Source: Rubrivivax sp.
Lineage (GTDB): Bacteria > Pseudomonadota > Gammaproteobacteria > Burkholderiales > Burkholderiaceae_C
Direction of reading: 5' to 3'
Length of the DNA: 52,947 nucleotides
Assembly: GCA_016790425.1 (NCBI GenBank)
Contig: JAEUPF010000104.1
Span: forward strand, 1 to 52,947
This document shows, in pieces, positions 20,714 through 46,400 of this stretch. Position 1 is the stretch's first letter. Every line of letters begins with the position of its first letter. The notes beneath the pieces were generated by a model that was not told the DNA's origin, did not search any database, and worked only from the letters and a program-made list of their open reading frames with translations. The position numbers and the translations under genes were made by a program.

Positions 20714-20752
20714 CGGCTCCTCGTTGCGTTGCATGCTGCGCGGCCAGGGCCT

Positions 20753-21243: not shown

Positions 21244-21268
21244 AAATCGGTATTCGCATACCAGAATG
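21244..21268 (-). promoter_or_regulatory. 25-bp shared motif, copy 1 (hemerythrin promoter)
   Basis: On the minus strand this reads CATTCTGGTA, three bases, GAATAC, then CGATTT. The core GGTAT-N4-ATACC is a perfect inverted repeat. The same motif, identical at 20 of 25 positions, is at 38130-38154. It lies 15 bases before the hemerythrin ATG. A start site 41.5 bases from the centre of the adjacent FNR-like box would fall inside it, so a repressor bound here would block transcription. The Rrf2 protein at 38863 is the natural candidate. Confidence 0.6.
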
Positions 21269-21300: not shown

Positions 21301-21314
21301 TTGTCCCAGGTCAA
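21301..21314. promoter_or_regulatory. FNR/DNR-like box upstream of hemerythrin
   Basis: TTGTCCCAGGTCAA matches TTGAT-N4-ATCAA at 7 of 10 defined positions. It is about 79 bases before the hemerythrin start and overlaps the last codon region of the upstream membrane protein gene. A -10-like TAGGCT (21277-21272, minus strand) is at the distance expected for a class II FNR promoter. Confidence 0.45.
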
Positions 21315-24208: not shown

Positions 24209-26688
24209 CGGCCCTCCTTCACGGCGGCAGCGGCGGCAACGGTGGCAGCAGCGGCGGCGGGAGCAGCGGGGGAGGCCCGCTCGCGGCGCTGCCCGGCGCG
24301 GCGCTGCTCCACGAGCGCGGCGAGCAGCCGGTCGGGCGTGATCGGCAGCGCGCGCACGCGCAGGCCCGTCGCGTCGTGGATCGCCGCGGCGACAGCCGGC
24401 GGCACGCTGTGCAGGCCGCCTTCGCTCGCCTCCTTGGCGCCGAACGGTCCCAGCGGGTCCAGGCTCTCGACCAGCGTCACGTCGATCGGCGGCGAGTCCG
24501 TCGCGCCGGGCATGCGGTAGTCGAGGAAGTTCGGGCGCAGCGGCAGCCCCTCGTGGTAGGTGTTCTCCTCGCAGAGCGCCTGCCCCAGGCCCATCCACAC
24601 CGCGCCTTGCACCTGGCCTTGCACGGCCAGCGGGTTGATGGCGCGGCCGCAGTCGTGTGCCACCCAGCAGTTGAGCACGCGCACGGCGCCGGTGCCGGTG
24701 TCGACCTCGACCTCGACCACCTGCGCGGCGTACGAGAACCCGGCCGTCGAGCCGACCGCGGCGCCGCGGAAGCTGCCGCCCTGCGTTTCCGGCGGCGTCG
24801 ACCACGCGCCCTTGATGGAGAGGGTGCCGGTGTCGACCAGCGCCGCGCGCACCACCTCGGCGAAGTGCAGGCCGCGGTCGGTGCCGGTGACGCGGCAGGT
24901 CTCGCCGAGCCATTCGATGTCGCCGGCGCTCGCTTCGAGCGTCTTCGCCGCCGCCTCGACCAGCACGCGCTTCAGCGCCTCGGCGGCGCGCAGCGCGGCG
25001 TTGCCGACCATGAACGACACGCGCGAGGAGTACGAGCCGTTGTCCTTGGGCGTGAGCGCACTGTCGGCGGCGATGACGCGGATGCGCGCCATCGGCAGCA
25101 GCAGCACCTCGGCCACCACCTGCGCCAGCAGCGTGCTCGAGCCCTGGCCGATGTCGGAGGCGCCGGTGAGCACGGTGATGCCGCCGTCGAAATCGAGCTT
25201 GAGGTGGATCACCGCATGCGGCTCGCCGCTCCAGTGCACCGGCTTGGCCGAGCCCGAGACGTAATGCGAGCAGGCCATGCCGAAGCCGCGCTTCACGGGG
25301 CCTTGCTGCGCGGCCGGGGTGCTGCCAATGCCGCGTTCGCGGCCTTCGCGCCATTGACGCCAGCCGCTGGCGCGCTCGACGGCGTCGATGCACTGCGGCA
25401 GGCCGTAGCTGTTGACCTGCAGGTCGTTGAGCGTGCGGTACGGCGGCTCGATGAGGTTCATGCGCCGCAGCGCGAACGGGTCGATGCCCAGCCGCTCGGC
25501 CGCTTCGTCCAGCGCCGCTTCGAAGGCAAAGCGCACGTTGACGGCACCGTGGCCGCGCATCGCGCCGCACGGCGGCAGGTTGGTGTAGACGCGAAAGCCC
25601 TGGTAGCGCACGGCGCCGACGCGGTACAGCGCGTGCAGCAGCGCGCCGGCGTAGAGGATCGTCACCAGGCCGTAGCCGGCGTAGGCGCCGCCGCGCTGCA
25701 CGACCTCGCAGTCGACGCCGGTGATCTCGCCGCCGGCCTTGAAGCCGAGCTTCAGGCGCACCTGCGTGGCCGGCCGCGCGCGGTGGGTGAGGAACGAGTC
25801 CTCGCGCGTGCACTGCAGCTTCACGGTGCCACCGGCGGCGCGCGCCAGCGCGGCCGTGACCATCTCGAAGTTCAGCGGCTCGACGCGGTGCCCGAAGCCG
25901 CCGCCGACGAACGGCTTGACGACGCGGACCACCTCGGGCGGAAGGCCGAGCGTGCGCGCCAGCGTCAGGTGCAGGTAGTACGGCACCTGCGTCACCGACT
26001 GCACGGTGAGCTGCCCGGCCTCGGCGTCCCACTGCGCGACGGTGGCGTTGAGCTCGATCTGGCCGTGCGAGATCTCGGCGCAGTCGAACTCGCCCTCGTG
26101 CACGAGGTCGCTGGCGGCGAAGGCGGCATCGACGTCGCCGAAGCTCTGCTCGACGCGGCGTTCGATGTTGCCCGGCTTGTCGTCGTGCAGCAGCACGGCG
26201 TCTTCGGCGCGCGCCGCGGCGGCCTCGAAGTAGGCCGGCAGCGGCTCGATGTCGACCTCGACGGCGGCCAGCGCGGCGGCGGCGCTCGCCTCGTCGTCGG
26301 CCGCCACGGCGAAGAGCGGTTCGCCGCGGTAGCGCACCTTGCCGCGTGCCAGCGGCCACTCGTTCTGCGCGATCGGGATCACGCCGTAGGGCGCCGCGAA
26401 GTCCTCGCCGGTGACCACCGCGCGCACGCCGGGCAACGCCAGCGCAGCACGGGCATCGATGCGGCGGATGACGCCGTGCGCCACCGGGCTGCGCCCGATG
26501 CGGCCCACCAGCGCCCCGGCAGCCTGGAAGGCGGGCAGGTCGGCGGTGTAGCGCGCGCGCCCGGTGACCTTCTCGACGCCGTCGACCAGCGGCCGCGCGA
26601 TGCCCACCGAATGCGTCGGCGGCGCCGGCGGCCGCGCAGGCCGTTCGTCGTGATGCCTGCGCCGGCTGCGCTCCTCGCCGGGCTTCAT
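24205..26688 (-). CDS. hcrA: 4-hydroxybenzoyl-CoA reductase, alpha (molybdenum) subunit
   Basis: An 827-residue molybdopterin subunit of the xanthine oxidase family. The pattern includes VDGVEKVTGRARYTADL, VGGGFGHRVEPLNFE (first cofactor loop), RGGAYAGYG, CGAMRGHGAVNVRFAFE and GASDIGQGSSTLLAQV. The C-terminal block GPFGAKEASEGGLHSVPPAV carries the catalytic Glu near KEASE. It is longer than the about 770 residues known for Thauera HcrA because of a basic N-terminal stretch (1-25) and an Ala-rich tail. ATG 26688 overlaps the hcrC stop (ATGA). With HcrB and HcrC it makes the complete dehydroxylating enzyme. Confidence 0.92.
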   Translation of the reverse strand: MKPGEERSRRRHHDERPARPPAPPTHSVGIARPLVDGVEKVTGRARYTADLPAFQAAGALVGRIGRSPVAHGVIRRIDARAALALPGVRAVVTGEDFAAPYGVIPIAQNEWPLARGKVRYRGEPLFAVAADDEASAAAALAAVEVDIEPLPAYFEAAAARAEDAVLLHDDKPGNIERRVEQSFGDVDAAFAASDLVHEGEFDCAEISHGQIELNATVAQWDAEAGQLTVQSVTQVPYYLHLTLARTLGLPPEVVRVVKPFVGGGFGHRVEPLNFEMVTAALARAAGGTVKLQCTREDSFLTHRARPATQVRLKLGFKAGGEITGVDCEVVQRGGAYAGYGLVTILYAGALLHALYRVGAVRYQGFRVYTNLPPCGAMRGHGAVNVRFAFEAALDEAAERLGIDPFALRRMNLIEPPYRTLNDLQVNSYGLPQCIDAVERASGWRQWREGRERGIGSTPAAQQGPVKRGFGMACSHYVSGSAKPVHWSGEPHAVIHLKLDFDGGITVLTGASDIGQGSSTLLAQVVAEVLLLPMARIRVIAADSALTPKDNGSYSSRVSFMVGNAALRAAEALKRVLVEAAAKTLEASAGDIEWLGETCRVTGTDRGLHFAEVVRAALVDTGTLSIKGAWSTPPETQGGSFRGAAVGSTAGFSYAAQVVEVEVDTGTGAVRVLNCWVAHDCGRAINPLAVQGQVQGAVWMGLGQALCEENTYHEGLPLRPNFLDYRMPGATDSPPIDVTLVESLDPLGPFGAKEASEGGLHSVPPAVAAAIHDATGLRVRALPITPDRLLAALVEQRRAGQRRERASPAAPAAAAATVAAAAAVKEGR

Positions 26689-27164
26689 GCCTTCGCTCCT
26701 GCGCCGGCGGCGGCCTGCACCGCCTCGACGATCTTCACGTACCCGGTGCAGCGGCACAGGTTCCCGGCCAGCGCCTGGCGCACCTCCGTGTCGCTGGGCT
26801 GCGGGTTCTCGCGCAGCAGCGCCTCGGCGGCCATCACCATGCCCGGTGTGCAGAAGCCGCATTGCGTGCCCAGCTTCTCGTGGAAGGCGCGCTGCAAGGC
26901 CGACAGCCGCCCCTGCTGCGGCAACGACTCGATGGTCTCGACGGCGCGCCCTTGCACGCTGGCCGCCAGCGTGATGCACGCCAGGCGCGGCTCGCCGTCG
27001 ACGAGCACGGTGCAGGCACCGCACTCGCCGCCGTCGCACCCTTGCTTGGTGCCGGTGAGTTGCAACGACTGGCGCAGCACGTCCAGCAGCAGCGCGCCGT
27101 CCGGCGCGGCCAGCGCGTGCGTGCGGCCGTTGACGTTCAGTTCGATCAGGCGGGCGGCGGGCAT
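26685..27164 (-). CDS. hcrC: 4-hydroxybenzoyl-CoA reductase, gamma (2Fe-2S) subunit
   Basis: A 159-residue subunit with two [2Fe-2S] clusters. Cys43, 48, 51 and 63 form the plant-ferredoxin-type cluster (GCDGGECGACTVL); Cys102, 105, 137 and 139 (QCGFC ... NLCRC) form the second. It transfers electrons, usually from ferredoxin, into the FAD and molybdenum subunits. ATG 27164 is 37 bases after the ligase stop. Gene order hcrC-hcrA-hcrB here is contiguous with overlaps. Confidence 0.93.
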   Translation of the reverse strand: MPAARLIELNVNGRTHALAAPDGALLLDVLRQSLQLTGTKQGCDGGECGACTVLVDGEPRLACITLAASVQGRAVETIESLPQQGRLSALQRAFHEKLGTQCGFCTPGMVMAAEALLRENPQPSDTEVRQALAGNLCRCTGYVKIVEAVQAAAGAGAKA

Positions 27165-27201: not shown

Positions 27202-28563
27202 TCAGTGCGGCGCCGGCTTCTTGCTGCGCAGGTCGCGCACGCGCGTCGCCTTGCCCTGCGAGCGCGGCAAGGCGCCCGGCTTCACCACGGCCACCTCGGC
27301 GCTGACGCCGATCAGCGACTTGACGTGGTGGCGGGCGTCGGCCGCCGCCTGCGCGTAGCCGTCCTCGGGCCAGCCGGGCAGCGCCTCGACCTCGATGCGC
27401 AGGCGGTCGAGCGAACCATCGCGCTCGACCACGAACTGGTAGTGCGGCGCCAGGCCGGGGCGGCCGACGAGCACGGCCTCGATCTGCGACGGGTAGACGT
27501 TGACGCCGCGGATGATGAGCATGTCGTCGTTGCGCCCGGCCACGCGCAGGATGCGCAGGTGCGTGCGGCCGCAGGCGCAGCGCTCGGTGCTCAGGCGCGT
27601 GATGTCGCGCGTGCGGTAGCGCAGCATCGGCAGCGCTTCCTTGGTGAGCGTGGTGATGACGAGTTCGCCCGCCTGTCCCTCGGGCACCGGCACGCCGGTG
27701 TCGGGGTCGACCAACTCGAACAGGAAGTGGTCCTCCCAGCCGTGCAGGCCGTCGCGATGCACGCATTCGCAGGCGACGCCGGGGCCCATGATCTCCGACA
27801 GGCCGTAGACGTCGAACGCGGTGATCCCGGTGCGCGCCTCGATCTCGTGGCGCATCGCCGCGCTCCACGGCTCGGCGCCGAACATGCCAATCGCCAGCCG
27901 GCTCTGGCGCAGGTCGACGCCTTGCTGCTCGGCCACGTCGGCGATGGCCAGTGCGTACGACGGCGTGGCGCACAGCACGCGCGGGCCGAAGTCCATGATC
28001 AGCGCCACCTGTCGCTCGGTGCCGCCGCCGCTGATGGGCACCACCGGGCAGCCCAGGCGCTCGGCGCCGCCGTGCGCGCCGAGGCCGCCGGTGAACAGCC
28101 CGTAGCCGTAGGCGTTGTGCACGAGGTCGCCCGGGCGCACGCCGGCGCCGGCCATCGAGCGCGCCACCAGCTCGTGCCAGCGCTCGAGGTCGCCGCGCGT
28201 GTAGCCCACCACGGTCGGCTTGCCGGTCGTGCCCGAGCTGGCATGCACGCGCGCCAACTCGTCCACGGGCCGCGCGAAGAGGCCGAACGGGTAGTTGGCG
28301 CGCAGGTCGTCCTTGACCATGAAGGGCAGGCGCCTGAGGTCTTCGAGCTGCGTCAGCGCATCGGGCTGCACGCCCGCCGCCTCGAGCCGCGCGCGCTGCC
28401 ACGGCACGTGGTCCCAGGCGTTGCGCAGCGTCGAGCGCAGACGCTCGAGCTGCAGCGCCGCCAGCGCGTCGCGCGACATCGTCTCGACGCCGGTGGGCGG
28501 CGGCGGCGCGGGCACCTTGCTGGTGGCGGCGTCGAAGTGGCGAGGCTCGGTGGCGGCACCCAT
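27202..28563 (-). CDS. paaK: phenylacetate-CoA ligase family protein (PaaK/PadJ type)
   Basis: A 453-residue ATP-dependent aryl-CoA ligase of the PaaK group. The nucleotide loop HASSGTTGKPTVVGYTRGDLERW, the segment YGYGLFTGGLGAHGGAERLG, SEIMGPGVACEC, and the C-terminal RGVNVYPSQIEAVL are diagnostic for phenylacetate-CoA ligase. The first 25 residues are a non-conserved extension. It lies 16 bases after padD and before hcrCAB. In anaerobic pathways the same role is called PadJ; hydroxyphenylacetate or hydroxybenzoate could be the real substrate here, since no other ligase is in the operon. Confidence 0.9.
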   Translation of the reverse strand: MGAATEPRHFDAATSKVPAPPPPTGVETMSRDALAALQLERLRSTLRNAWDHVPWQRARLEAAGVQPDALTQLEDLRRLPFMVKDDLRANYPFGLFARPVDELARVHASSGTTGKPTVVGYTRGDLERWHELVARSMAGAGVRPGDLVHNAYGYGLFTGGLGAHGGAERLGCPVVPISGGGTERQVALIMDFGPRVLCATPSYALAIADVAEQQGVDLRQSRLAIGMFGAEPWSAAMRHEIEARTGITAFDVYGLSEIMGPGVACECVHRDGLHGWEDHFLFELVDPDTGVPVPEGQAGELVITTLTKEALPMLRYRTRDITRLSTERCACGRTHLRILRVAGRNDDMLIIRGVNVYPSQIEAVLVGRPGLAPHYQFVVERDGSLDRLRIEVEALPGWPEDGYAQAAADARHHVKSLIGVSAEVAVVKPGALPRSQGKATRVRDLRSKKPAPH

Positions 28564-28579
28564 CTGTTGCTTCTCCTCG

Positions 28580-29491
28580 TCAGCGCGGACCGGCCGGGCG
28601 CTCGCCGCGGCGCAGGTCCGGCCGCACATGGGCCACCCCGCGCACCGGCAGGTGCGGCAGCGCGAAGCCCTGATTGAAGGCGGCGCGCACGATGAGCGTG
28701 AACTTGAACCACAGCCCGCCGGCCAGCGCCAGCGCGCCGGCCGCCGGCCCGATGAGCGCCAGCCCCGGGGCCTGCGGCGCCAGAAGCGCCACCACGGCCA
28801 GCGCCAGCGCGGCGAGCGTGCTGCCCTTGAAGATGCGGCCGGCGCGGTCGATCGCCGCCAGCGCGCGCGGCGCCGCACGGGCGGCCTGCAAACGGCGCCG
28901 CCAGGCCAGCCAGACGCCCAGGCGCACGGCGAGCGCGGCGGCCAGCAGCGCCGTCATCAGCGCGGCCGTGAACGAAGCCGGCAGCGCCGCCGCGCCGCCG
29001 AAGCGCAGCAGCCACCACAGGCCGATGCCCTCGGCCACCGCGGTGCTCAGCACGAGCGGCACGATGAGCGGCTCGCGCCAGGCCGGGATGCCCTTGGCCG
29101 CGTGCAGGATGCGGCCCTGGCACCAGGCGAAGGCGAGCGCCGCCAGCGCAGCCACCACGGCCGGCCAGCGCGCCGGCGACCCGGCGAGCGCCGCCGCCAC
29201 GGCCACCGCCACGGCCGCGAAGAGCACGAGCGCCACGCCGCCCTCGCGCGTCATCCACGAAGACTGCGGGCGCCGGAAGACGTTCAGCGCCCGCAGCGGC
29301 CGGCCGATCTCGAACCAAACGGCCAGCAGCCCGAGCCCGACCAGCAGCGCGCCCAGCACGAGCGGTCCCGCGCCCGAGCCGGCCAGCGCCGCGGCCACGA
29401 CGAGCCCGCTGCCGGCGCCGCCGGCCATGAAGTTCGCCGCCGCGCGCGCGTCCCAGTGGCGCTGCAGCCAGGGGTTCGGGCCGTAGCTCAT
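28580..29491 (-). CDS. padD: phenylacetyl-CoA dehydrogenase membrane subunit (NrfD/DmsC type)
   Basis: A 303-residue membrane anchor with about eight helices of the NrfD/DmsC type, starting with the conserved NPWLQRHWDARAAANFMAGGAGSGL and followed by the quinol-site-like segment RPLRALNVFRRPQSSWMTREG. It would pass electrons from the iron-sulfur subunit to ubiquinone. ATG 29491 overlaps the padC stop by three bases. The assignment to the Pad complex depends on the adjacent large and Fe-S subunits and on the phenylacetate-CoA ligase next to it. Confidence 0.78.
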   Translation of the reverse strand: MSYGPNPWLQRHWDARAAANFMAGGAGSGLVVAAALAGSGAGPLVLGALLVGLGLLAVWFEIGRPLRALNVFRRPQSSWMTREGGVALVLFAAVAVAVAAALAGSPARWPAVVAALAALAFAWCQGRILHAAKGIPAWREPLIVPLVLSTAVAEGIGLWWLLRFGGAAALPASFTAALMTALLAAALAVRLGVWLAWRRRLQAARAAPRALAAIDRAGRIFKGSTLAALALAVVALLAPQAPGLALIGPAAGALALAGGLWFKFTLIVRAAFNQGFALPHLPVRGVAHVRPDLRRGERPAGPR

Positions 29492-30234
29492 CGGACCCGC
29501 TCCGCGCGCGGCGCGACCTCGGCGGCCGCCGCCGCCGGCTGCGGCGCCGCTGCCGGCTGGTCCTGCGCAGCGCCGGGCTGCGTGCCTTGCGCGACGCGGT
29601 CCCACAGGTAGAAGAAGCCGGGGCCGGTGCCCAGTTCCTCGTGCATGCGGAAGTGCTGGTTCTCGGCCAGCAGCCGGTTGACGTTGCTGTGCGGATCGTC
29701 GAGGTCGCCGAAGGCCAGCGCCTCGGCGATGCAGGCGTTGACGCAGGCCGGCGTCGCCTCGGGGTTCACGCCGGGCACGAGGCCGGCGGCGGTGCCGGCG
29801 TCGATGCGCTCGACGCAGAAGGTGCACTTGGTGGCCACCGCCAGGCGCGCCTCGTCGTGGCGCTTGGCCTCGTGCTCGCTGGCGCGGCCGTAGGCGAAGG
29901 TGGCGCGCTCGGTCTTGTAGCGCGCCTGGTACGGGCAGGCGACGGCGCAGTAGGCGCAGCCGATGCAGCGGTCGTAGTCGATGGTGACGATGCCGTCGGC
30001 GCGCTGGCCCGTCGCGCCGGTGGGGCACACCGCCAGGCACGGCGGCTCGTCGCAATGCTGGCAGCCCACCGGCACGAAGGCGCGCTGCACGTCGGGGTAC
30101 TCGCCGAACTCCATGTCCAGCACGCGCCGCCACTGCACGCCCGGCGGCGTGGCGTTGGCGTGCTTGCACGCCGCGGTGCAGGTCTGGCAGCCGACGCAGC
30201 GGCGCAGGTCGGCGACCATCGCCCAGCGCGTCAT
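29488..30234 (-). CDS. padC: phenylacetyl-CoA dehydrogenase iron-sulfur subunit
   Basis: A 248-residue electron-transfer subunit of the DMSO-reductase family with four ferredoxin-like cysteine groups: CVGCQTCTAAC, CQHCDEPPCLAVCPTGA, CIGCAYCAVACPYQARY and CTFCVERID with the later PACVNAC. Four [4Fe-4S] clusters are expected. The C-terminal 35 residues are Ala/Pro/Gln-rich. ATG 30234 overlaps the padB stop (ATGA). The size matches the roughly 27-kDa subunit of the Thauera phenylacetyl-CoA:acceptor oxidoreductase. Confidence 0.82.
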   Translation of the reverse strand: MTRWAMVADLRRCVGCQTCTAACKHANATPPGVQWRRVLDMEFGEYPDVQRAFVPVGCQHCDEPPCLAVCPTGATGQRADGIVTIDYDRCIGCAYCAVACPYQARYKTERATFAYGRASEHEAKRHDEARLAVATKCTFCVERIDAGTAAGLVPGVNPEATPACVNACIAEALAFGDLDDPHSNVNRLLAENQHFRMHEELGTGPGFFYLWDRVAQGTQPGAAQDQPAAAPQPAAAAAEVAPRAERVR

Positions 30235-32966
30235 GCCTCGGCTCCCGCGCGCGCCGGTTGCAGCCGCACGCGCACGAGGTCGGCGCTGGAGCCGGTGGCG
30301 TCGGTGAGGTCCATCGACATCTGCGCCAGCGTGTTCAGGCTCGGCACGCCGAAGTCCTTGGCCAGCGGCGTCTTCCAGTGGTCGAACTGGCCGACGAGCA
30401 ACAGCGTGTCGGGGCGGATGCCCTGGCGCAGCACGGCCCGGCCGCGCACGCGGCGCTTGGGCGTCGAGATCTCGATGGCGTCGCCGTCCTCGATCCCGAG
30501 GGCGGCGGCGGCGCGCGGGTTGACGATGACGCCGCGGTGGCCGGCGACGTTCTCGGCCACCTCGCGGATCATCTGCACGCCGGCGTTGCCGCCCCAGGCG
30601 TACTGCATGCTGCGCGCGGTGAGCAGCCAGAACGGATAAGCCTTCGCGTCGCCGCCGCTGTCGACCACCGCCGCTTCCCACAGGCCGGGGAAATCCTTGT
30701 ACGGCGGCAGCGCCGAATACTCCTCGAGCTGCTTGTCCCACCAGTGCATGCCGTGCTCGTGCAGGCGGCGGCCGAGCTCGACGCCGACGCGCTTCAGGCG
30801 CTCCTGGTAGGGCAGCTCGAAGCGCACGCCCTGCTGCTGCATCGTCGGCAGCAGGTACCAGCGGCTTTGCGGGAACGGCGCCGTCATCAGCCCGTGCTCG
30901 CGCCACCAGTCGAGGCCGTGCACCTGCGTGCCCTCGCTCACCTCGGCGCTGGCCGAGCGGCACACGGCGTCCCAGATCGCCTCGCGCGAAGGGCTCGCCT
31001 CGGGGCTCAATGCGAAGTCGCCGTGCGCGTGCTTCAGCGGCACGCCGCAGCCGCCCTTGTTGATCGAGGCGACATACTTGGCCGTCAGCCCCGTGCGCGC
31101 GGCCAGTTCGCTGGCCACCTCGGTGAAGTCGCGCGCCTGGCCGCGCGGCGCCACCGCCGGCTGGCGCAGCGCGAAGCCCTCGTGCTGCCAGAACTGCTCG
31201 ACGTACTTGGTGCCGCCGATGCGGATCAGCTGCAGGCTCTCCAGATCGGTGGCGTCGGGCAGCAGGATGTCGGCGAAGTGGTTCGTCTCGTCGCGCGTGT
31301 AGGCGAAGGCGACGACGAACGGGAAGCGCGCCATCTTCTCGCCGATGGCCGGCGTGTCCCAGAACGAGATCGCCGGGTTGGTGCGGTAGACGAACCACAG
31401 GTCCGGCGGCGTCACGCGCGGCAGGCCCTCGGGCGTGTCGTCGAGGAACATCCACGAGAAGTGCGTCGGCCCGAGCGCCTGGCTCCAGGGCCCGTCGCTG
31501 GCCAGCGGCACCATCGTGCGGTAGGCGTTGCGGATGTTGGGCCTGGGCGACCAGAGTTCCTTGCTGGTCGGGTTCAGCGCGTAGTGCATGAAGCCGTCGG
31601 CGCCGCTCACCACGCTCTCGTGCCGGTGCGACATCGGCCGCGCCAGCCGCACCGTGGTGCCGATGGTGCCGCCGGGCACCTCGAGCGCGCCGACGAGCAC
31701 CGCCAGCAGCGTGCGCGCCCAGCAGCACTCGTAGCCGCCCCAGCCGTTGTTGACCGTCTTGCCCAGCGACACCGCCACCGGCCGGTAGGGCATCGTCACG
31801 CCGTCGATCTCGATCGTCTGGCCGACGCAGGCGTGCGCCAGATACTCGTTGGCGATGCGGCGGATCTGCGTTGCCGGCACGTCGCACACGCCCTCGGCCC
31901 ACTCGGGCGAGTAGCGCGCAAGATGCTCCACCAGCAGCGTGAAGGCGGTGGCGCCTGCGAGCGCGCCTTCGGCGAGCACTTCACCGTCGGCGCCGCGCTC
32001 CAGCGCCGCGGCGGCGCGGTGGCGGCCTTCCAGCGCCTCTTCGATGCCGGGGGTGTCGTGCGGCACGGCGCGCTGCGTCTGCCGGTCCCACACCAGCGGC
32101 TTGCCGCTGGCCGGCTCGCGCAGGTAGTAGCCGTGGGCGCCGACGAGGTACGGCGAGCCGGTCCAGCGGGCGAGGAACGGCAGGTCGAGCTGCGTGCGCG
32201 GCGCCTCGTGCAGCATCACGTGCAGGAGCGCGTAGAGGAACGCGGCGTCGGTCTTGGGCTTGATCGGCACCCACTCGGCCGAGCAGGCGCCGGTGACCGA
32301 CAGGTGCGGCTCGACCTGCACCCGCTTCATGCCGCGCACGCGCGCCTTGGCGTGCCGCGCGATGCCGACGACGCCGCCCGAGGCCTCGACGTTGGCGCCG
32401 CAGCTGATGAGGTAGTTGCAGTGCGGCGTGTCGGGCGCGACGATGAAGGCGCGGTGCCAGTACTCGCCGTACAGGTGCTCGCTGTGGTAGCACTTGACGC
32501 CCTGGCCCGAGCCGATGCCGAAGTCCACCGGCCCCCACGCCGCGAGGAAGGCCGGGAAGCTGCCCATGTACATCTGCGGCGTGCCGCCGCCGCCGAAGCT
32601 GGCGGCCACGCGCGGGTAGCCCGAGGCGTCGGTGAGGCCGACGGCGCGGATGGCGTTGAGCCGCCCGGCGATCGTCGCCAGCGCTTCTTCCCACGTGATC
32701 TCGACGAAGCCGGGGTCCTCGTCGCGGCCCTTCTTCGGGTTCGTGCGCTTCATCGGCGCCAGCACCCGGTGCGGGTTGTAGGTCTTCTGGATCAGCCCGA
32801 AGGCCTTGACGCAGACCTTGCCGCCGCCGGGGTGGATGGGCGCGGCGCAGAAGTTGGGCTCGATCTCGGTGGCGACGCCGTCCTCCACCTTCACCGTGGC
32901 CAGGTCGGGGCCGGCCACGCACTGGTAGCAGTAGGTGGGGACGCGGCGCGTGACGGTGGCGGCCAT
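30231..32966 (-). CDS. padB: phenylacetyl-CoA dehydrogenase, molybdopterin catalytic subunit
   Basis: A 911-residue DMSO-reductase-family molybdenum subunit. It probably oxidises the CH2 of (hydroxy)phenylacetyl-CoA to a keto group with quinone as acceptor, as in Thauera PadBCD; size, three-gene architecture and neighbouring PadJ-type ligase agree. No twin-arginine signal is visible: the N-terminus goes directly into TYCYQCVAG. Cysteines 13, 16, 40 and 52 could bind a [4Fe-4S] cluster, but the third is not at the usual place. Cys in GQGVKCYHSEH is a candidate molybdenum ligand. A different DMSO-family oxidoreductase for a related aryl-acetyl or sulfur substrate is the main alternative. Confidence 0.78.
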   Translation of the reverse strand: MAATVTRRVPTYCYQCVAGPDLATVKVEDGVATEIEPNFCAAPIHPGGGKVCVKAFGLIQKTYNPHRVLAPMKRTNPKKGRDEDPGFVEITWEEALATIAGRLNAIRAVGLTDASGYPRVAASFGGGGTPQMYMGSFPAFLAAWGPVDFGIGSGQGVKCYHSEHLYGEYWHRAFIVAPDTPHCNYLISCGANVEASGGVVGIARHAKARVRGMKRVQVEPHLSVTGACSAEWVPIKPKTDAAFLYALLHVMLHEAPRTQLDLPFLARWTGSPYLVGAHGYYLREPASGKPLVWDRQTQRAVPHDTPGIEEALEGRHRAAAALERGADGEVLAEGALAGATAFTLLVEHLARYSPEWAEGVCDVPATQIRRIANEYLAHACVGQTIEIDGVTMPYRPVAVSLGKTVNNGWGGYECCWARTLLAVLVGALEVPGGTIGTTVRLARPMSHRHESVVSGADGFMHYALNPTSKELWSPRPNIRNAYRTMVPLASDGPWSQALGPTHFSWMFLDDTPEGLPRVTPPDLWFVYRTNPAISFWDTPAIGEKMARFPFVVAFAYTRDETNHFADILLPDATDLESLQLIRIGGTKYVEQFWQHEGFALRQPAVAPRGQARDFTEVASELAARTGLTAKYVASINKGGCGVPLKHAHGDFALSPEASPSREAIWDAVCRSASAEVSEGTQVHGLDWWREHGLMTAPFPQSRWYLLPTMQQQGVRFELPYQERLKRVGVELGRRLHEHGMHWWDKQLEEYSALPPYKDFPGLWEAAVVDSGGDAKAYPFWLLTARSMQYAWGGNAGVQMIREVAENVAGHRGVIVNPRAAAALGIEDGDAIEISTPKRRVRGRAVLRQGIRPDTLLLVGQFDHWKTPLAKDFGVPSLNTLAQMSMDLTDATGSSADLVRVRLQPARAGAEA

Positions 32967-33006: not shown

Positions 33007-33435
33007 CTACTGCGCCGCCGTCCCCGCGGCGGCGGCCTTCGCCTTCGCGGCCTTGGCGGCCAGGCGCTCGCCGGTCTTGGCCACGTCGACGACGAAGCGC
33101 GAGTGGCGGCCGCGCACGATGGGCTCCACCGCGTCGCGGCCTTCGATCTCGAACACGACGGCGCGGCCCTTGACCTCGGCCACGCGCACGACGAGCGTCA
33201 CCGCCATGCCCAGCAGCGTGGCGCCGATGTGGTCGATCTCCACCCGCGTGCCCACCGAGTCTTCGCCGGCGTCCAGGTGGGCCAGCAGCAGGTTGCGGCA
33301 GGCGATCTCGATGTCGCGCACCAGCATCGGCGTGGCGTAGACGCGCGCCGCCTCGCCCATGAAGTCGATCGTGCGCTCGCGATCGACGGTGAAGGTGACC
33401 AGCGACTCGAGGCCGCTCTGCAGCGTGGGTTTCAT
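33007..33435 (-). CDS. FlK-like hotdog-fold acyl-CoA thioesterase
   Basis: A 142-residue hotdog thioesterase similar to fluoroacetyl-CoA thioesterase FlK. The catalytic triad of FlK (Thr42, Glu50, His76) is conserved here as Thr35, Glu43 and His69 with identical spacing (8 and 26). The Ala/Lys-rich C-terminus (from about 120) is probably flexible. It sits between livF and padB in the aromatic operon, where it could free CoA from dead-end or excess aryl-CoA esters. The substrate is not evident. Confidence 0.82.
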   Translation of the reverse strand: MKPTLQSGLESLVTFTVDRERTIDFMGEAARVYATPMLVRDIEIACRNLLLAHLDAGEDSVGTRVEIDHIGATLLGMAVTLVVRVAEVKGRAVVFEIEGRDAVEPIVRGRHSRFVVDVAKTGERLAAKAAKAKAAAAGTAAQ

Positions 33436-33481: not shown

Positions 33482-34174
33482 TCAATGCCCGAGGTAGGCC
33501 TGCTGCACCTGGGCGTCGCGCAGCAGTTCGGCGCCCGGGCCCTCGGCCACCAGGCGCCCGGTCTCCATCACGTAGCCGCGGTCGGCGATGGCCAGCGCCG
33601 CGCGCGCGTTCTGGTCGACCAGCAGGATGGTCGTGCCGCGGGCGCGCAGCGCCTTGATGTGGGTGAAGATCTCGGCGACCAGCTTGGGCGCCAGGCCCAT
33701 GCTCGGTTCATCCAGCAGCAGCAGGCGCGGGTCGGCCATCAGCGCGCGGCCGATCGCCAGCATCTGCTGCTGGCCGCCGGAGAGCGTGCCGGCCGCCTCG
33801 CCGCGCTTCCTGGCCAGCACCGGGAACATCGCGTAGACCGCTTCCAGCGTCGCCGCGCGGCCGCGCGCGAAGGCGCCCAGGAGCAGGTTGTCCTCGACGT
33901 CGAGCGCGCCCCACACCTGGCGCCCCTCGGGCACCTGGACGATGCCGCGCCTGACGCGCCGGCGCGGCGTCTCGCGGCCGATGTCGGTGCCTTCGAAGCG
34001 CAGCGTGCCGCCGCTCATCGGCTGCACGCCCGACAGCGTGCGCAGCAGCGTCGTCTTGCCGGCGCCGTTGGCGCCGACGATGGCGACGAGCTCGCCGGCC
34101 TCGACGTGCAGCGAGACGCCGGCCAGGGCCGGGATGCGGCCGTAGCGGCTGGCGAGGTCGTGCACCTCAAGCAC
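33482..34174 (-). CDS. livF: branched-chain-type ABC transporter ATPase LivF
   Basis: A 230-residue ABC ATPase: Walker A GANGAGKTT, signature TLSGGQQQMLAIGRAL and Walker B LLLLDEPSMGLAP. It starts at GTG 34174, overlapping the livG stop. With LivG, LivH, LivM and LivK it forms a HAAT-type importer. Such systems placed in aromatic operons usually import aromatic acids rather than amino acids. Confidence 0.92.
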   Translation of the reverse strand: MLEVHDLASRYGRIPALAGVSLHVEAGELVAIVGANGAGKTTLLRTLSGVQPMSGGTLRFEGTDIGRETPRRRVRRGIVQVPEGRQVWGALDVEDNLLLGAFARGRAATLEAVYAMFPVLARKRGEAAGTLSGGQQQMLAIGRALMADPRLLLLDEPSMGLAPKLVAEIFTHIKALRARGTTILLVDQNARAALAIADRGYVMETGRLVAEGPGAELLRDAQVQQAYLGH

Positions 34175-34994
34175 CGGCGGCCTCCGTGGAGGTCGGCGCG
34201 GCCGCGCCGCCGGCGCCCTGCTCGCCTTCGGCGCCGAGGTAGGCCTCGATGACGCGCGGGTCGCATGCCACCTGCGCCGGTGTGCCCTCTGCCAGCGGCG
34301 CCCCGTGGTCGAGCACGAGCACGCGGTCGGACACCTCCATCACGAGGCGCATGTTGTGCTCGACCAGCACCACGGCGATGCCGCCGGCGGCCAGCTCGCG
34401 GATCAGCGCGTCGATCTCGCGCGCCTCGGTCTCGTTGAGCCCGGCGGCCGGCTCGTCCAGCAGCAGCAGCTTCGGCTCGGTGGCGAGCGCGCGCGCGATC
34501 TCCAGCCGCTTCAGCGCGCCGTAGGGCATGGCGTCGGCGCGGGCGCCGGTCCACGCCGCCAGGCCCACGCGCTGCATCAGCGCCGCGGCTTCGGCGCGGC
34601 AGCGCTCCTCGGCGGCACGCAGCGCCGGCAAGCGCAGCAGTGCCGGCAGGATGGCCGTGTTCTCGTGCCGGTGGCGCCCGGCCATCACGTTCTCCAGAGC
34701 GCTCATGTTGAAGAAGATCTGCAGGTTCTGGAACGTGCGCGCCAGCCCGGCGGCGGCGTAGCGATGCACCGGCTGGCCGGTGAGGTCGCGCCCGTCCAGC
34801 ACCACGCGGCCGGCGTCGGGCACGTAGATGCCCGACAGCAGGTTCAGCAGCGTCGTCTTGCCGGCGCCGTTGGGGCCGATGACGGCGTGCACGCTGCCCG
34901 GCGCCACGTCGAACGAGACGCCGTCCACCGCCACGACGCCGCCGAAGCGCTTGCCCAGGCCCTCGACGTGCAGCAGGCTCATCGCGCTGGCCAT
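34167..34994 (-). CDS. livG: branched-chain-type ABC transporter ATPase LivG
   Basis: A 275-residue ABC ATPase with Walker A GPNGAGKTT, a signature region MPYGALKRLEIARAL (degenerate LSGGQ, normal for LivG), and Walker B LLLLDEPAAGLN. A Gly/Ala/Thr-rich tail ends the protein. Start 34994 lies 17 bases after the livM stop; ATG 34982 is an alternative giving MSLLHVEG. Confidence 0.92.
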   Translation of the reverse strand: MASAMSLLHVEGLGKRFGGVVAVDGVSFDVAPGSVHAVIGPNGAGKTTLLNLLSGIYVPDAGRVVLDGRDLTGQPVHRYAAAGLARTFQNLQIFFNMSALENVMAGRHRHENTAILPALLRLPALRAAEERCRAEAAALMQRVGLAAWTGARADAMPYGALKRLEIARALATEPKLLLLDEPAAGLNETEAREIDALIRELAAGGIAVVLVEHNMRLVMEVSDRVLVLDHGAPLAEGTPAQVACDPRVIEAYLGAEGEQGAGGAAAPTSTEAAGA

Positions 34995-35011
34995 CCCGTC
35001 TGCACCGCGCC

Positions 35012-35995
35012 TCAATGCCGCGCCAGCAGGCGCGCCAGCGTCGGCACGATGCCGCGCGGCATGAAGACCATCGTCGCGATCAGCACCGCGCCGAAGACCG
35101 TCATCTCGTAGTCCTTCAGCGCGGTGAGGAACTGCGGCAGCAGCGTCAGCACCGCGGCCCCGGCCAGCGCACCCCAGATCGAGGCCATGCCGCCGAAGAC
35201 GACCATGATCACCAGTTCCACCGAATGCAGGAACGAAGCCTTGGCCGGCGTGATGAAGCCGGCGTAGTGCGCCGTCAGCGCGCCGGCCGCGGCAGCGATG
35301 GCCGCCGACAGCACGAAGACGCGCAGCTTCCAGCGCGCCGCGTCGATGCCCAGTGTCTCGGCGGCGACCTCGGAGCCGTGCAGCGCGCGCAAGGCGCGGC
35401 CGGCCGGCGAGTCGACCAGGTGCAGCGCGCCCAGCACGGTGAGCCACAAGAGCGCCGCGACGACCGCGTACCACGCCGGCTCGCCCTTCAGCACCTGGCC
35501 GAAGAGTTCGAGCGGCGGCACCGGCATGCCGTCGGGGCCGCCGGTGATGCGGTCCTCGTTGGTCAGCACGATCGAGACGATGACGCCCAGGCCGAGCGTG
35601 GCCATCGCCAGGTAGTGACCCTTCAGCCTGAGCGTGGGCCGGCCGACGAGCCAGGCCAGCAGGGCCACGGCGGCCACCGCCGCCGGCAGCGCCAGCCACG
35701 CCGGCCAGCCCAGGCGGGCCACGAAGAGCGCGCTGCCGTAGCCGCCGAGCGCGTAGAAGCCGGCGTGGCCGAGGCTGATCTGCCCGGCGTAGCCGATCAG
35801 CAGGTTGAGGCCCACGCAGACGATCGCGTTCAGCGCGACCAGGATCGCGACCTCGAAGAAGAACGGGTTGGGGAACGTCAGCGGCAGCGCCGCCAGCAGC
35901 GCCGCGAACGCCAGCAGCGCCCCGACGCGCGGCGACACGCGCCGCCGCTTCGCCGCCGCCGCCGCGGGCTCAAACACGCTCGACGCGGCGCGCAC
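35012..35995 (-). CDS. livM: branched-chain-type ABC transporter permease LivM
   Basis: A 327-residue permease with about ten helices; the LivM pattern IGYAGQISLGHAGFYALGGY and GGMASIWGALAGAAVLTLLP is clear. The GTG at 35995 overlaps the livH stop by 26 bases; a second GTG at 35977 would remove six residues, and no strong ribosome site decides between them. Confidence 0.9.
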   Translation of the reverse strand: MRAASSVFEPAAAAAKRRRVSPRVGALLAFAALLAALPLTFPNPFFFEVAILVALNAIVCVGLNLLIGYAGQISLGHAGFYALGGYGSALFVARLGWPAWLALPAAVAAVALLAWLVGRPTLRLKGHYLAMATLGLGVIVSIVLTNEDRITGGPDGMPVPPLELFGQVLKGEPAWYAVVAALLWLTVLGALHLVDSPAGRALRALHGSEVAAETLGIDAARWKLRVFVLSAAIAAAAGALTAHYAGFITPAKASFLHSVELVIMVVFGGMASIWGALAGAAVLTLLPQFLTALKDYEMTVFGAVLIATMVFMPRGIVPTLARLLARH

Positions 35996-36860
35996 CGGCG
36001 AGCCCCCCCGGCATGAAGAACAGCACCGCGAGGATGACGACGAAGGCGATCGCGTCCTTGTAGGCCGAGGAGAGGAAGCCGGCGCCCAGGCCTTCGACGA
36101 GCCCCAGCAGCAAGCCGCCGGCCACCGCGCCGCCGAAGCTGCCCAGGCCGCCCAGCATCGCCGCGGCGAAGCCCTTCAGGCCGAGCATCACGCCCACCTC
36201 GTAGGAGGTGAAGGTGATCGGCGCCGTCAACACGCCGCCGAGGGCCCCCAGCGCCGCGGCGAGGGCGAAGCTGGCGCGCATCACGCCGCGCGTGGACACG
36301 CCCGCCAGGCGCGCCGCCAGCGCGTTGATCGCCGTGGCGCGCATCGCCTTGCCGTACAGGGTGCGGCCGAAGAACCAGCCCAGGCCGAGCACCGCCACCG
36401 CGGCGCCGCCCAGCACCCACAGGCTTTGCGGCAGCACCGTGGCACCGCCGATGGCGATGGGCTCGCTGCCGCTGAACGCCGGCAGCGGGTGGATGCGCTT
36501 GTCCCACACCACCTGCGCCAGGCCGCGCAGCAGGAGCGCGACGCCGATGGTGATGATGATCAGCGTCACCACGTCGGCGCCGGCACCCATGCGGGCATGG
36601 GCGCGCTCGAGCGCCAGGCGCTGCACCAGCAGGCCCACCAGCGCCGCGCCGGCCACCGCCAGCGGCACCGCGGCCCACAGCGGCAGCCCCAGGCCGACCA
36701 GCGACACGGCGCCCATGCCGCCCAGCATCACGAACTCGCCCTGCGCGAAGTTGATCGCGTGGCTGGCGTTGTAGACGATCGAGAAGCCTAAGGCGACGAG
36801 TGCGTAGATGGCGCCGGCGGTCAGCCCGCCGGCGACGAATTGCAGCCAGGAGCCGCCCAT
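35970..36860 (-). CDS. livH: branched-chain-type ABC transporter permease LivH
   Basis: A 296-residue permease with LivH features: GAIYALVALGFSIVYNASHAINFAQGEFVMLGG at the start and GLKGFAAAMLGGLGSFGGAVAGG in the second half. ATG 36860 is 43 bases after the livK stop. It pairs with LivM to form the membrane channel. Confidence 0.93.
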   Translation of the reverse strand: MGGSWLQFVAGGLTAGAIYALVALGFSIVYNASHAINFAQGEFVMLGGMGAVSLVGLGLPLWAAVPLAVAGAALVGLLVQRLALERAHARMGAGADVVTLIIITIGVALLLRGLAQVVWDKRIHPLPAFSGSEPIAIGGATVLPQSLWVLGGAAVAVLGLGWFFGRTLYGKAMRATAINALAARLAGVSTRGVMRASFALAAALGALGGVLTAPITFTSYEVGVMLGLKGFAAAMLGGLGSFGGAVAGGLLLGLVEGLGAGFLSSAYKDAIAFVVILAVLFFMPGGLAGARRVERV

Positions 36861-36903: not shown

Positions 36904-38067
36904 TCACTTCACCAGCGACCAGGTGCCGCCCTTGACCTCGAGCATGCGGAAGGCGGTGAGGTCCAGGCCCATGTGGTCGCCGGCCGACATGTTGACCACG
37001 CCGCCCGTGCCGACGTAGCCCTTGGTGGCCTCGATCGCGTCACGCACCTTGGCCTTGTCGGTGCCGCCGGCGGCCTTCATCGCGTTGACGGCGAGCATCA
37101 GGCCGTCGTAGGCGTGGCCGCCGAAGGTGGACACCTCGGCCTTGTGCCTGGCCTCGAACGCGTTGCGGTAGTTCGTGACCACGGGCTTCTGCGGGTCGCC
37201 GGCGGCGAGCAGGTCGGCCACCAGCAGCGCCGCGGCGGGCAGGCGCACGCCTTCGGCAGCGTCGCCCGACAGCTTGATGTACTCCTTGGAGGCGACCCCG
37301 TGCGACTGGTACAGCGGCAGGCCGACGCCCACCTGCTTGTGGTTGCGGGTGACGATGGCCGGGCCCTGGCCGAAGCCGGCGTTGAGCACCGCCTGCGCAC
37401 CGCTGCCCTTGATCTTCGTGAGCTGCGCGGTCATGTCGGTGTCGGCGGCGCCGTAGGTCTCGTCGGCGACGATCGAGACGCCGTGGTTGCCGGCCACCTT
37501 CAGGCATTCGGCGCGCATGCTCTTGTCGAAGCCGCCGGCGCCGGAGATCAGCGCTGCCTTGGCGTAGCCGCGCGCCTTCATGTCGACGAAGATCTTGTCG
37601 CAGGCCATGCGGTCGGTGTGCGGTGTCTTGAAGACCCACTTCTTCACCGGCTCGACGATCACCACTGCGCCGGCCAGCGAGATGAACGGCACGCCGCCGG
37701 CCTCGGCCAGCGGCACCGCGGCCATCGTCGTGCCGGTGGTCGAGCCGCCGACCAGCACGTCGACCTTGTCCTGCTCGATCAGGCGCTTGGCGAACGTGCG
37801 CGCCTTCTCGGCATCGCCGGCGTCGTCGTAGCTGACCAGCTGCAGCTTGCGGCCGAGCACGCCGCCGGCGGCATTGATCGCCTCGACCTGCATCTCGAGC
37901 GTCTTCAGCTCGGGGTCGCCGAGGAACGATGCCGGCCCGGTGACGGACAGGAAGGCGCCGATGCGGATGGGCTCCTGCGCCAGCGCCAGCGGCGCAGCGA
38001 GCAGCGAAGCGGCGGCCACCGTGGCGGTGGTGGCCAGGCGGCGAATCGAGGCGGGCACGAGGCTCAT
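36904..38067 (-). CDS. livK: periplasmic substrate-binding protein of ABC importer (LivK type)
   Basis: A 387-residue type I periplasmic receptor. A signal peptide ends near ALAQ (about residue 31). IRIGAFLSVTGPASFLGDPELKTLEMQVEAINAAGG and YDDAGDAEKARTFAKRL are typical of the HAAT receptor group. It is the first gene of the large minus-strand operon leading through pad and hcr genes, so its ligand is probably an aromatic acid such as phenylacetate or a hydroxylated analogue. Its promoter lies in the 115-base gap shared with the divergent GNAT gene. Confidence 0.92.
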   Translation of the reverse strand: MSLVPASIRRLATTATVAAASLLAAPLALAQEPIRIGAFLSVTGPASFLGDPELKTLEMQVEAINAAGGVLGRKLQLVSYDDAGDAEKARTFAKRLIEQDKVDVLVGGSTTGTTMAAVPLAEAGGVPFISLAGAVVIVEPVKKWVFKTPHTDRMACDKIFVDMKARGYAKAALISGAGGFDKSMRAECLKVAGNHGVSIVADETYGAADTDMTAQLTKIKGSGAQAVLNAGFGQGPAIVTRNHKQVGVGLPLYQSHGVASKEYIKLSGDAAEGVRLPAAALLVADLLAAGDPQKPVVTNYRNAFEARHKAEVSTFGGHAYDGLMLAVNAMKAAGGTDKAKVRDAIEATKGYVGTGGVVNMSAGDHMGLDLTAFRMLEVKGGTWSLVK

Positions 38068-38129: not shown

Positions 38130-38154
38130 CATTCTGGTACTGGAATACAGGTTT
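38130..38154 (+). promoter_or_regulatory. 25-bp shared motif, copy 2 (livK / GNAT-Rrf2 divergent promoter)
   Basis: Reads CATTCTGGTA, three bases, GAATAC, then AGGTTT; identical at 20 of 25 positions to the copy at 21244-21268. It sits in the 115-base gap between livK (minus) and the GNAT-Rrf2 pair (plus), so one bound regulator could control both directions. An inverted repeat AGAATGA (38112-38118) / TCATTCT (38129-38135) overlaps its left end. A partial FNR-like sequence (TTGACCTGGATCGC, 38160-38173) follows. The adjacent BadM-like protein is the likely ligand. Confidence 0.6.
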
Positions 38155-38182
38155 CAGTCTTGACCTGGATCGCCTTTCGCCG

Positions 38183-38866
38183 ATGAGCGCCCACGGGAAA
38201 ACACCGAGGCGGGCGGGCACGGAAACGCCCCGCCGCGGCCGCACCGCGGCTGGCGCCGCAGCCGCCGCGCACGGCGGCGGGGCTGCCGACGGCAGCGCGC
38301 GCGGGGAACGCCGGGCAGCGGCCGCGGCCGCGGCCGCCGGCCTGCGGCTGCGCGTGCGCGCGGTGCGCCAGGCCGACCTGCCGGCGGTGATCGCGCTGGA
38401 TGCCACCGTCACCGGCCTGCACAAGGCCGACTACTGGCAGCGCGTGTACCGCCGCTACGGCGTCGCCGGCCAGGGGCTGCGCCACTTCCTCGTGGCCGAA
38501 GCGAGCGAGGGCAAGGCGGCGCGTGCAGCGGCGACGATCTGCGGCTTCGTCATCGGCGAGGTGCGCGACTGGGAATTCGGCTCGCCGCCGTGCGGCTGGG
38601 TGTTCGCCATCGACGTCGACCCGCGCGTGCGCCAGGCCGGCGTCGGCACGGCGCTGCTGGCCGCCGTGCGCGAGCGCTTCGAGCGCGTGGGCGTCGACCG
38701 CCTGCGCACGATGCTGGCGCGCGACAACACGCTGCTGCTGTCGTTCTTCCGCGCCCAGGGCCTGACCGCCGGCCGGCTGATCCCGCTGGAGACGGAGATC
38801 GGGCCCGGCACCGCGGGCGGTGCGGGTGCCGGCAGCCCTGCGGCCGCCGGCGGCAGCGCGCGATGA
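38183..38866 (+). CDS. GNAT acetyltransferase, BadL-like
   Basis: A 227-residue protein with an Ala/Arg/Gly-rich N-terminal 50 residues of unknown use and one GNAT domain (about residues 55-200); acetyl-CoA loop VDPRVRQAGVGTALL. The stop overlaps the start of an Rrf2-family regulator (ATGA). In Rhodopseudomonas palustris an equivalent pair, BadL and BadM, controls anaerobic benzoate genes: BadL acetylates aminobenzoates and the products relieve repression by BadM. The same logic is inferred here because the pair is divergent from an aryl-CoA operon. The domain also resembles both halves of the tandem GNAT at 19655-20713. Confidence 0.78.
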   Translation: MSAHGKTPRRAGTETPRRGRTAAGAAAAAHGGGAADGSARGERRAAAAAAAAGLRLRVRAVRQADLPAVIALDATVTGLHKADYWQRVYRRYGVAGQGLRHFLVAEASEGKAARAAATICGFVIGEVRDWEFGSPPCGWVFAIDVDPRVRQAGVGTALLAAVRERFERVGVDRLRTMLARDNTLLLSFFRAQGLTAGRLIPLETEIGPGTAGGAGAGSPAAAGGSAR

Positions 38867-39261
38867 ACCTGCAGAAGAACACCATGCTGGCGCTGTACGC
38901 GGTGCTGGAGTTCGCCGCCCGGCCGGGCGAGAACGTCAGTGCCGGCGAAGTGGCGGCGCGGCACGGCGAGTCGGTGCATCACCTGGCGAAGGTGTTGTCC
39001 GAGCTCGTGCGCGCCGGCATCGTCGAGTCGGTGCGCGGCGTCGGCGGCGGCTACCGCTTCGCCGCCAACCCGCGCCGCCTGACGATGCTCGACGTGATCC
39101 AGCTCTTCGAACGGCTGGGCGAGGAACGGCGAGGCGCCCGCGACCCGATCGATCGCACGCTCGACCAGGTGCTCGAGGAGATCGAGCAGACCGCCATCGC
39201 CACCTTCGGCACCATCACCATCAGCACGTTGCTGCAGATGGTGCGGCGCAGCGGGGGCTGA
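38863..39261 (+). CDS. Rrf2-family transcriptional regulator, BadM-like
   Basis: A 132-residue Rrf2-family winged-helix protein (ALYAVLEFAARPGENVSAGEVAARHGESVHHLAKVLSELVRAGIVESVRGVGGGYRF). It contains no cysteine, so unlike NsrR or IscR it cannot hold an Fe-S cluster through cysteines; BadM-type regulators respond to small aromatic ligands instead. It is translationally coupled to the GNAT gene. It is the best candidate to bind the 25-bp motif found upstream of livK/GNAT and of the hemerythrin gene. Confidence 0.83.
   Translation: MNLQKNTMLALYAVLEFAARPGENVSAGEVAARHGESVHHLAKVLSELVRAGIVESVRGVGGGYRFAANPRRLTMLDVIQLFERLGEERRGARDPIDRTLDQVLEEIEQTAIATFGTITISTLLQMVRRSGG

Positions 39262-44527: not shown

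Positions 44528-46400
<1,873 letters not shown>

Follow-up and report, generated by a model that had tools for sequence, protein, structure and literature searches.

A candidate BadM-type Rrf2 regulon in Rubrivivax that reaches from aryl-CoA catabolism to a hemerythrin/tandem-GNAT operon

A 25-bp motif that occurs twice in the window (the whole analysed stretch of 52,947 nucleotides of Rubrivivax sp., contig JAEUPF010000104.1) is probably the operator of a BadM-type Rrf2 regulator (38863-39261) whose release signal would be made by a partner GNAT acetyltransferase and whose regulon would comprise four sites superimposed on an anaerobic activator. That the regulon is real is very likely. The predicted operator is palindromic over about 18 bp and centred on GTAC. 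As a kind, the system is a variant of BadL/BadM, broader and with different equipment, and no new class; relative to BadL/BadM, the wider regulon, the operator and the hemerythrin module are new.

BadL/BadM is an unusual repressor case in that the releasing molecule is made by the partner acetyltransferase. According to its description in Rhodopseudomonas palustris (PMC6191541), BadM represses badDEFGAB, and acetamidobenzoates release BadM and also affect photosynthesis genes; on that description the case is worked out in one organism, for one operon plus the effect on photosynthesis genes. The present system is alike in having an Rrf2 + GNAT pair near aryl-CoA genes and the benzoyl-CoA reductase (BCR) promoter among its sites, a likeness drawn from the published description (PMC6191541), the gene pairing and the context. 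It differs from R. palustris BadM in that one palindrome also marks the liv/pad-like/hcr, aryl-CoA-ligase and hemerythrin/tandem-GNAT genes and, in another family, boxC. The proposed operator makes the regulon searchable in genomes and testable at the bench, predicts control of anaerobic bcr, pad-like and hcr and, in that other family, of aerobic boxC, and gives the hemerythrin/tandem-GNAT operon a place and a testable function.

The regulator pair and the operator copy beside it are as follows.

38130..38154, plus strand: operator copy 1, with its core at 38130-38147 forming the palindrome CATTCTGGTACTGGAATA, between the divergent livK and GNAT-Rrf2 genes
38183..38866, plus strand: GNAT acetyltransferase, BadL-like (P0001), by domain and alignment
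38863..39261, plus strand: Rrf2-family regulator, BadM-like (P0005), by domain; without cysteines

The start of the Rrf2 gene overlaps the GNAT stop as ATGA, and the true start of P0001 is uncertain because its conserved part begins near 38348. P0001 carries a GNAT domain (PF00583, 34.9 bits, cut-off 20.7) and P0005 an Rrf2 domain (PF02082, 82.6 bits; TIGR00738, 88.2 bits, cut-off 73.3). By sequence, the solved-structure relatives of P0005 include IscR, NsrR and CymR, which with RirA belong to the same Rrf2 family; all NCBIfam equivalog matches of P0005 are far below cut-off, and its homologues are mostly free of cysteine (115 of 128 distinct sequences, with three or more cysteines in 2). An iron-sulphur Rrf2 regulator of the IscR, NsrR or RirA type was rejected, since the conserved cysteine ligands are absent; P0005, having no cysteine, probably senses a small molecule instead of an iron-sulphur cluster. 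The GNAT gene is followed by Rrf2 in 18/18 loci of the genus and in all 80 named loci described below (the L131 copy is cut by a contig end); the alignments of the two proteins each hold 15 of the 18 genus rows. We infer from the common palindrome that P0005 is a BadM-type repressor that would bind and repress the BCR promoter. P0001 is, by analogy, probably a BadL-type GNAT, with acetylation of an aminobenzoate-type aromatic as its putative activity.

There is a real, if minority, chance that the regulon exists and the signal is not an acetylated aromatic, with Rrf2 sensing an aryl-CoA or other compound directly and the GNAT acting on a different substrate. The acetylated ligand of Rrf2 is here putative, the published gel shifts needed 10 mM 2-acetamidobenzoate, with 5 mM having no effect (PMC6191541), and aryl-CoA sensors are known for such pathways, as in the case of MbdR with 3-methylbenzoyl-CoA. 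Against this, GNAT and Rrf2 were inseparable in 145 of 146 loci (counted over overlapping sets), and deletion of badM is described as restoring growth of an R. palustris badL mutant (PMC6191541).

The second copy of the motif lies 17 kb away, on the opposite strand.

21244..21268, minus strand: operator copy 2, upstream of hemerythrin

Copy 1 reads CATTCTGGTA-CTG-GAATAC (38130-38148, plus strand) and copy 2 CATTCTGGTA-TGC-GAATAC (21250-21268, minus strand); counted by eye, 38130-38154 and 21268-21244 are identical at 20/25 positions, just as the initial annotation had stated. Two eye-picked copies in one window invite over-reading. A search of the whole assembly (4.3 Mb, 178 contigs, 82% complete) for CATTCTGGTANNNGAATAC gave three exact matches, two of them inside the window; allowing up to 3 mismatches gave 5 matches at 4 places (the three exact ones plus two with 3 mismatches, one of which is the opposite strand of the third exact copy), and the reversed CATTCTGGTANNNGAATAC gave zero at the same threshold. 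Copies from same-genus genomes define the motif as a palindrome, TATTCNGGTACCNGAATA, which at up to 3 mismatches also occurs at 4 places in the own genome, with none for its reversed control. These places, all upstream of aryl-CoA or hemerythrin genes, are between livK and GNAT-Rrf2 (window 38130), 5' of hemerythrin and the tandem GNAT (window 21251), 5' of a rubrerythrin/aryl-CoA-ligase fusion (P0007), and in the had-kor gap of the BCR cluster (C131:5042). The initial annotation had proposed a genome-wide scan for sites upstream of BCR genes as a check; in the own BCR cluster, had (alcohol-dehydrogenase type) is followed by dch and bcrC, and kor is a 2-oxoacid:ferredoxin oxidoreductase. With the reversed controls at zero and the motif conserved across many lineages, a chance likeness of the two window sites is extremely improbable. 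A foldable hairpin at the 38130 site was tried and rejected (z-score 0.10).

A sequence-only model of the site, built from 41 of 60 distinct named GNAT-promoter sites, gave five matches in the own genome at E<=1, in the same four places and no other. The best E values were 2.8e-5 and 3.0e-5; the hemerythrin and had/kor sites, at about 0.5, scored no better than the two matches in Rrf2-negative genomes (0.49 and 0.84). The model was run on 14/18 Rrf2-positive and 14/42 Rrf2-negative genus genomes. For about 10 of the 14 Rrf2-positive genomes scanned, the GNAT-promoter site belongs to the training set or is next to it, and independence of training is confined to the other sites and to genomes such as G000, G001, G017 and G067.

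The first of the four places faces a long operon in addition to the regulator pair, and the third faces P0007.

36904..38067, minus strand: livK-type periplasmic binding protein, the gene that opens the divergent operon
35970..36860, minus strand: livH-type permease, by domain
35012..35995, minus strand: ORF, probably a livM-type permease, judged by position
34167..35699, minus strand: ORF with a livG-type ABC ATPase domain (residues 259-491)
33482..34174, minus strand: livF-type ABC ATPase, by domain
33007..33435, minus strand: FlK-type thioesterase, by domain
30231..32966, minus strand: DMSO-reductase-family molybdoenzyme, putatively PadB-like from context
28580..30169, minus strand: ORF with a DmsC-type anchor domain
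27202..28878, minus strand: phenylacetate-CoA ligase, PaaK-like; conserved from residue 132 and scoring 576 bits, short of the NCBIfam cut-off (646)
26685..27164, minus strand: 2Fe-2S subunit of a molybdenum hydroxylase, probably HcrC
24205..27039, minus strand: 4-hydroxybenzoyl-CoA reductase alpha subunit, conserved from residue 150 (TIGR03194, 1116 bits, cut-off 994.55)
L006:7523-9619 (G000:C104), minus strand: P0007, rubrerythrin/aryl-CoA-ligase-type fusion, with the operator upstream

P0007 carries a rubrerythrin domain N-terminally and an AMP-binding domain C-terminally; its top two NCBIfam matches, 3-hydroxybenzoate-CoA ligase and benzoate-CoA ligase, both fall short of cut-off. Relatives of P0007 occur in 4/80 named loci, and relatives of the PadB-like molybdoenzyme (at least 45% identity) in 56/80.

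We then considered 60 genomes of the genus. An Rrf2 homologue was present in 18, bcrC over cut-off in 17 and both in 16; the tandem GNAT was present in 17, 15 of these with bcrC (Fisher 1.7e-11 for Rrf2-bcrC and 3.2e-10 for tandem GNAT-bcrC; Fisher and rank tests throughout ignore shared ancestry). The palindrome at up to 2 mismatches was found in 12/60 genomes, 11 of them with the Rrf2 gene, compared with 2/60 for the reversed control. At up to 3 mismatches there were 53 matches in the 18 Rrf2-positive genomes (reversed control 15) and 32 in the 42 Rrf2-negative ones (reversed control 83). A site (up to 4 mismatches) precedes the GNAT-Rrf2 pair in 16/18 genus loci; of the two pairs without one, the first is cut by a contig end and the second, in G001, is matched weakly by the model (E 0.08). 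Among 20 BCR-related loci fetched from the genus, 12 contain had and kor (the other 8 are cut or are other loci), and in 11 of these 12 clusters the had-kor gap holds a site at up to 4 mismatches, with no further match in those loci; G017 has no had/kor site at this threshold. The initial annotation had named lack of conservation in relatives as refuting, and the motif proved to be conserved. As a separate observation, a second bcrC-like gene, below the family cut-off (L068, L070-L073), has the palindrome about 150 bp upstream in 5/5 genomes.

These counts also bear on whether the palindrome belongs to another regulator of aryl-CoA genes, of which the GNAT-Rrf2 pair would be merely a target. 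Binding of Rrf2 to the palindrome is a prediction, and in G075, a genome 75% complete, the motif and the tandem GNAT occur with no Rrf2 match. Matches per genome nevertheless track the presence of Rrf2, the pair adjoins the site in loci as distant as Burkholderiales and family f76, and in R. palustris the bad operon is described as repressed by BadM (PMC6191541). We therefore rate a different regulator as unlikely and retain Rrf2 as the probable owner of the operator.

Outside the genus we used named loci, the best 80 of 324 GNAT relatives in a scan of named genomes, with titles that include Rubrivivax, Ramlibacter, Rhodoferax, Ideonella and Burkholderiales bacterium. A site at up to 4 mismatches lies within 450 bp upstream of the pair in 63/80 of them, and none was found at this threshold in 17/80. 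These 63 matches fall in 35,272 bp of upstream DNA, where the reversed control gave 0; the remaining 974,235 bp had 10 matches, compared with 6 for the control. Of the 10, hemerythrin and the interval between kor and dch-bcrC account for three each and livK for one, with the other three lying elsewhere. The GNAT itself was found in 7/398 genomes of a phylum-wide sample, the own one included, in 20/385 of a class-wide one and in 69/75 genomes of family f76. In 30 loci of f76 (L228-L257), boxC neighbours the pair in 29 (with a match over cut-off confirmed in one locus) and a palindrome like TAATTCGGTACCGAATTA occurs in 26; with boxC in 29/30, the same type of regulator may serve the aerobic pathway there.

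In 19 loci of other families, examined over neighbour contexts of about 11.5-20 kb, the pair neighbours are bcrC in 9, boxC in 3, padB-like in 2 and hcrA in 2; of the rest, one has a weak hcrA relative (on an Agrobacterium plasmid) and two have none of these genes. Aryl-CoA genes thus recur as neighbours of the pair in the form of bcrC, boxC, padB-like or hcrA, and bcrC co-occurs in 16/18 Rrf2-positive genus genomes. The pattern TAWTNNNGTACNNNAWTA (up to 1 mismatch), drawn after some of the counted loci had been viewed, had 15 matches in 16.4 kb upstream of such neighbour genes and 2 in 288 kb elsewhere, one beside a benzoate-CoA-ligase homologue (L310) and one 5' of a 2-oxoacid oxidoreductase operon (L186). 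The genus-made pattern at up to 5 mismatches also finds many other-family sites, plus matches outside promoters. Taken over these families, the GTAC-centred variant precedes bcr, boxC, pad-like, hcr and hemerythrin/tandem-GNAT genes. At least 11 of 30 loci kept from the model scan share DNA with named loci. There were exceptions. No aryl-CoA gene was found within the 12-20 kb examined near the pairs of G651 (L315) and G320/G428/G432 (L187-L189). Neither a pattern search nor an inverted-repeat search of intergenic DNA found a palindrome at the pair or BCR promoter of L185, which has an inverted repeat, TATTTTCGTACTCTTATGCGAAAATA, upstream of its tandem GNAT. Separately, the pair of L302 sits on an Agrobacterium tumefaciens plasmid typed as conjugative (NZ_CP123840.1), between a molybdenum-hydroxylase operon and a liv + benzoate-CoA-ligase operon, and no palindrome was found at that pair.

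Two promoters of the window also carry FNR-type boxes.

38160..38173, plus strand: FNR/CRP-type box TTGACCTGGATCGC, 8/10 fixed positions, on the GNAT side of the operator at a centre-to-centre distance of 28 bp
21301..21314, minus strand: FNR-type box TTGACCTGGGACAA, upstream of the operator by 48 bp, centre to centre

In the own genome, each of the four sites has a box matching 8 or 9 of 10 positions, and the operator stands between the box and the gene named; the distance from box to operator centre is 28 bp at livK, 48 bp at hemerythrin, 27 bp at the ligase fusion and 46 bp at had-bcr. Similar boxes were read by eye 5' of hemerythrin in relatives. Across the 63 named loci with a GNAT-promoter site, TTGAYNNNNRTCAA-like boxes (at least 8/10) lie on one side of the site in 51 and on the opposite side in 2. 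Centres are 27 bp apart in 40 of the 51, and 67 bp apart in L133, L138 and L148. The spacing of 27 bp, together with the CAGAAT contained in the motif (4/6 to the -10 consensus), could be read as a promoter element common to FNR-activated genes, a -10 region and no operator. We think this very improbable: the motif is palindromic, its distance from the box varies by target (27-28, 46, 48, 67), and its excess is absent from Rrf2-negative relatives. As an observation apart, the box at 21301-21314 shares bases with the stop codon of the ORF that precedes hemerythrin (21311-22897), for which no Pfam family match was found.

Under the operator reading, an FNR-family protein would bind these boxes and read anoxia; R. 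palustris has AadR as the FNR/CRP-type activator in the same promoter (PMC6191541), and here the counterpart is a box. Seen from the catabolic gene, the operator is downstream of the box, with centres 27-28, 46-48 or more bp apart, and if the box is at -41.5 the operator would cover the -10 region or the first transcribed bases. The Rrf2 protein would bind the palindrome and repress, and the BadL-type GNAT would probably make, as in R. palustris, an acetylated aromatic that releases it, such that the genes would be on only with oxygen absent and the aromatic signal present. The four sites would place under this control the liv/pad-like/hcr operon with GNAT-Rrf2 itself, hemerythrin/tandem-GNAT, the rubrerythrin/aryl-CoA-ligase fusion, and had-bcr/kor.

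The hemerythrin operon consists of two genes in the window.

20753..21229, minus strand: hemerythrin HHE-domain protein (P0002), by domain
19655..20734, minus strand: tandem two-domain GNAT acetyltransferase (P0003), by domain

The initial annotation had assigned the GNATs behind both promoters to one subfamily. They are related, but not as one close subfamily: P0001 has one GNAT domain and P0003 two, and the identity between them is 27% over 147 residues. In 17/17 genus loci the gene immediately 5' of the tandem GNAT is hemerythrin, and the pattern at up to 5 mismatches has nine matches in these loci, each just 5' of hemerythrin (the reversed pattern matches twice, elsewhere); in 8/17, no site was found upstream of hemerythrin even at 5 mismatches. 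A tandem-GNAT profile, which omitted 3 of the 17 genus rows, detected the protein in 12/20 BadL-positive genomes of other families compared with 0/20 BadL-negative ones. One G264 row is part of the profile, making the independent count 11/19, and the BadL-negative controls include several small genomes and 8/20 from the window's own family. Sorted by pair neighbours, the tandem GNAT is present in 12/13 genomes with bcrC, padB-like or hcrA, 0/5 with boxC and 0/2 with none of these (Fisher 1e-4). L185 has the whole set in a single cluster (bcrC, dch, had, kor, a rubrerythrin-like gene, Rrf2, GNAT, hemerythrin and tandem GNAT).

In the tandem-GNAT loci of other families, hemerythrin was found only in L318, L319, L320, L323 and L327/L330. 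A GTAC-centred palindrome is present 5' of hemerythrin in L319, L320, L323 and L330 and 5' of the tandem GNAT in L324 and L328/L331, with none found in the other loci of the set. The tandem-GNAT copies of L319 and L322 carry in-frame stops and are either pseudogenes or assembly errors.

The link of hemerythrin to the aryl-CoA regulon is supported. The module would be an accessory of the anaerobic branch, its likeliest roles being to guard the oxygen-sensitive reductase or to tune the acetylated signal, with hemerythrin guarding against or sensing oxygen. Tentatively, and with the odds against it, hemerythrin and the tandem GNAT could form an undescribed oxygen-and-acetyl checkpoint of anaerobic aryl-CoA catabolism that goes with the BCR, pad-like and hcr branch and not with the aerobic box branch, and that feeds back on the acetylated signal releasing Rrf2. 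Of the BadM-like regulon that had been suggested to join aryl-CoA catabolism to a hemerythrin/nitric-oxide module, the joining holds on comparative evidence, as the palindrome is common to the pair, the BCR cluster, liv/pad-like/hcr, the ligase and the hemerythrin module; the nitric-oxide part lacks support. A nitric-oxide regulon was rejected, the hemerythrin/tandem-GNAT module tracking aryl-CoA genes; the only nitrogen-oxide hints in the window are a DUF2249 ORF (22878-23852) and a cytochrome-d1 gene (44625-46400).

The nearest published systems differ in equipment or distribution. For Magnetospirillum magneticum and Geobacter metallireducens, BadL homologues are described in clusters with BadM repressors (PMC6191541), and among benzoate-CoA-ligase neighbourhoods BadM is reported only in the context of Alphaproteobacteria (PMC10803450). 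The BoxR/BzdR regulators that serve the same pathways in other proteobacteria belong to the XRE family (PMC10803450), not to Rrf2. Benzoate clusters elsewhere encode a hemerythrin of unclear role (PMC6449761); COG3945 hemerythrins encoded with aromatic genes are proposed there to store or scavenge oxygen, and P0002 is placed by its HHE domain. Unlike the COG3945 genes of benzoate clusters, hemerythrin here is directly upstream of the tandem GNAT, and neither Rrf2 nor BadM occurs in the main text of PMC6449761. In the literature searched, mostly at title and abstract level, we found no description of such a regulon, no report joining Rubrivivax, benzoate and Rrf2, and no assigned role for a hemerythrin/tandem-GNAT operon.

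Two further features of the window were recorded. The cytochrome-d1 (nitrite-reductase-type) gene at 44625-46400 and a Crp/Fnr-family regulator at 47770-48501 stand near the pair, which suggests a denitrifier. At 11731-13810 there are two adjacent peptidase-U32-family genes, which we take to resemble the UbiU/UbiV pair of oxygen-independent ubiquinone synthesis.
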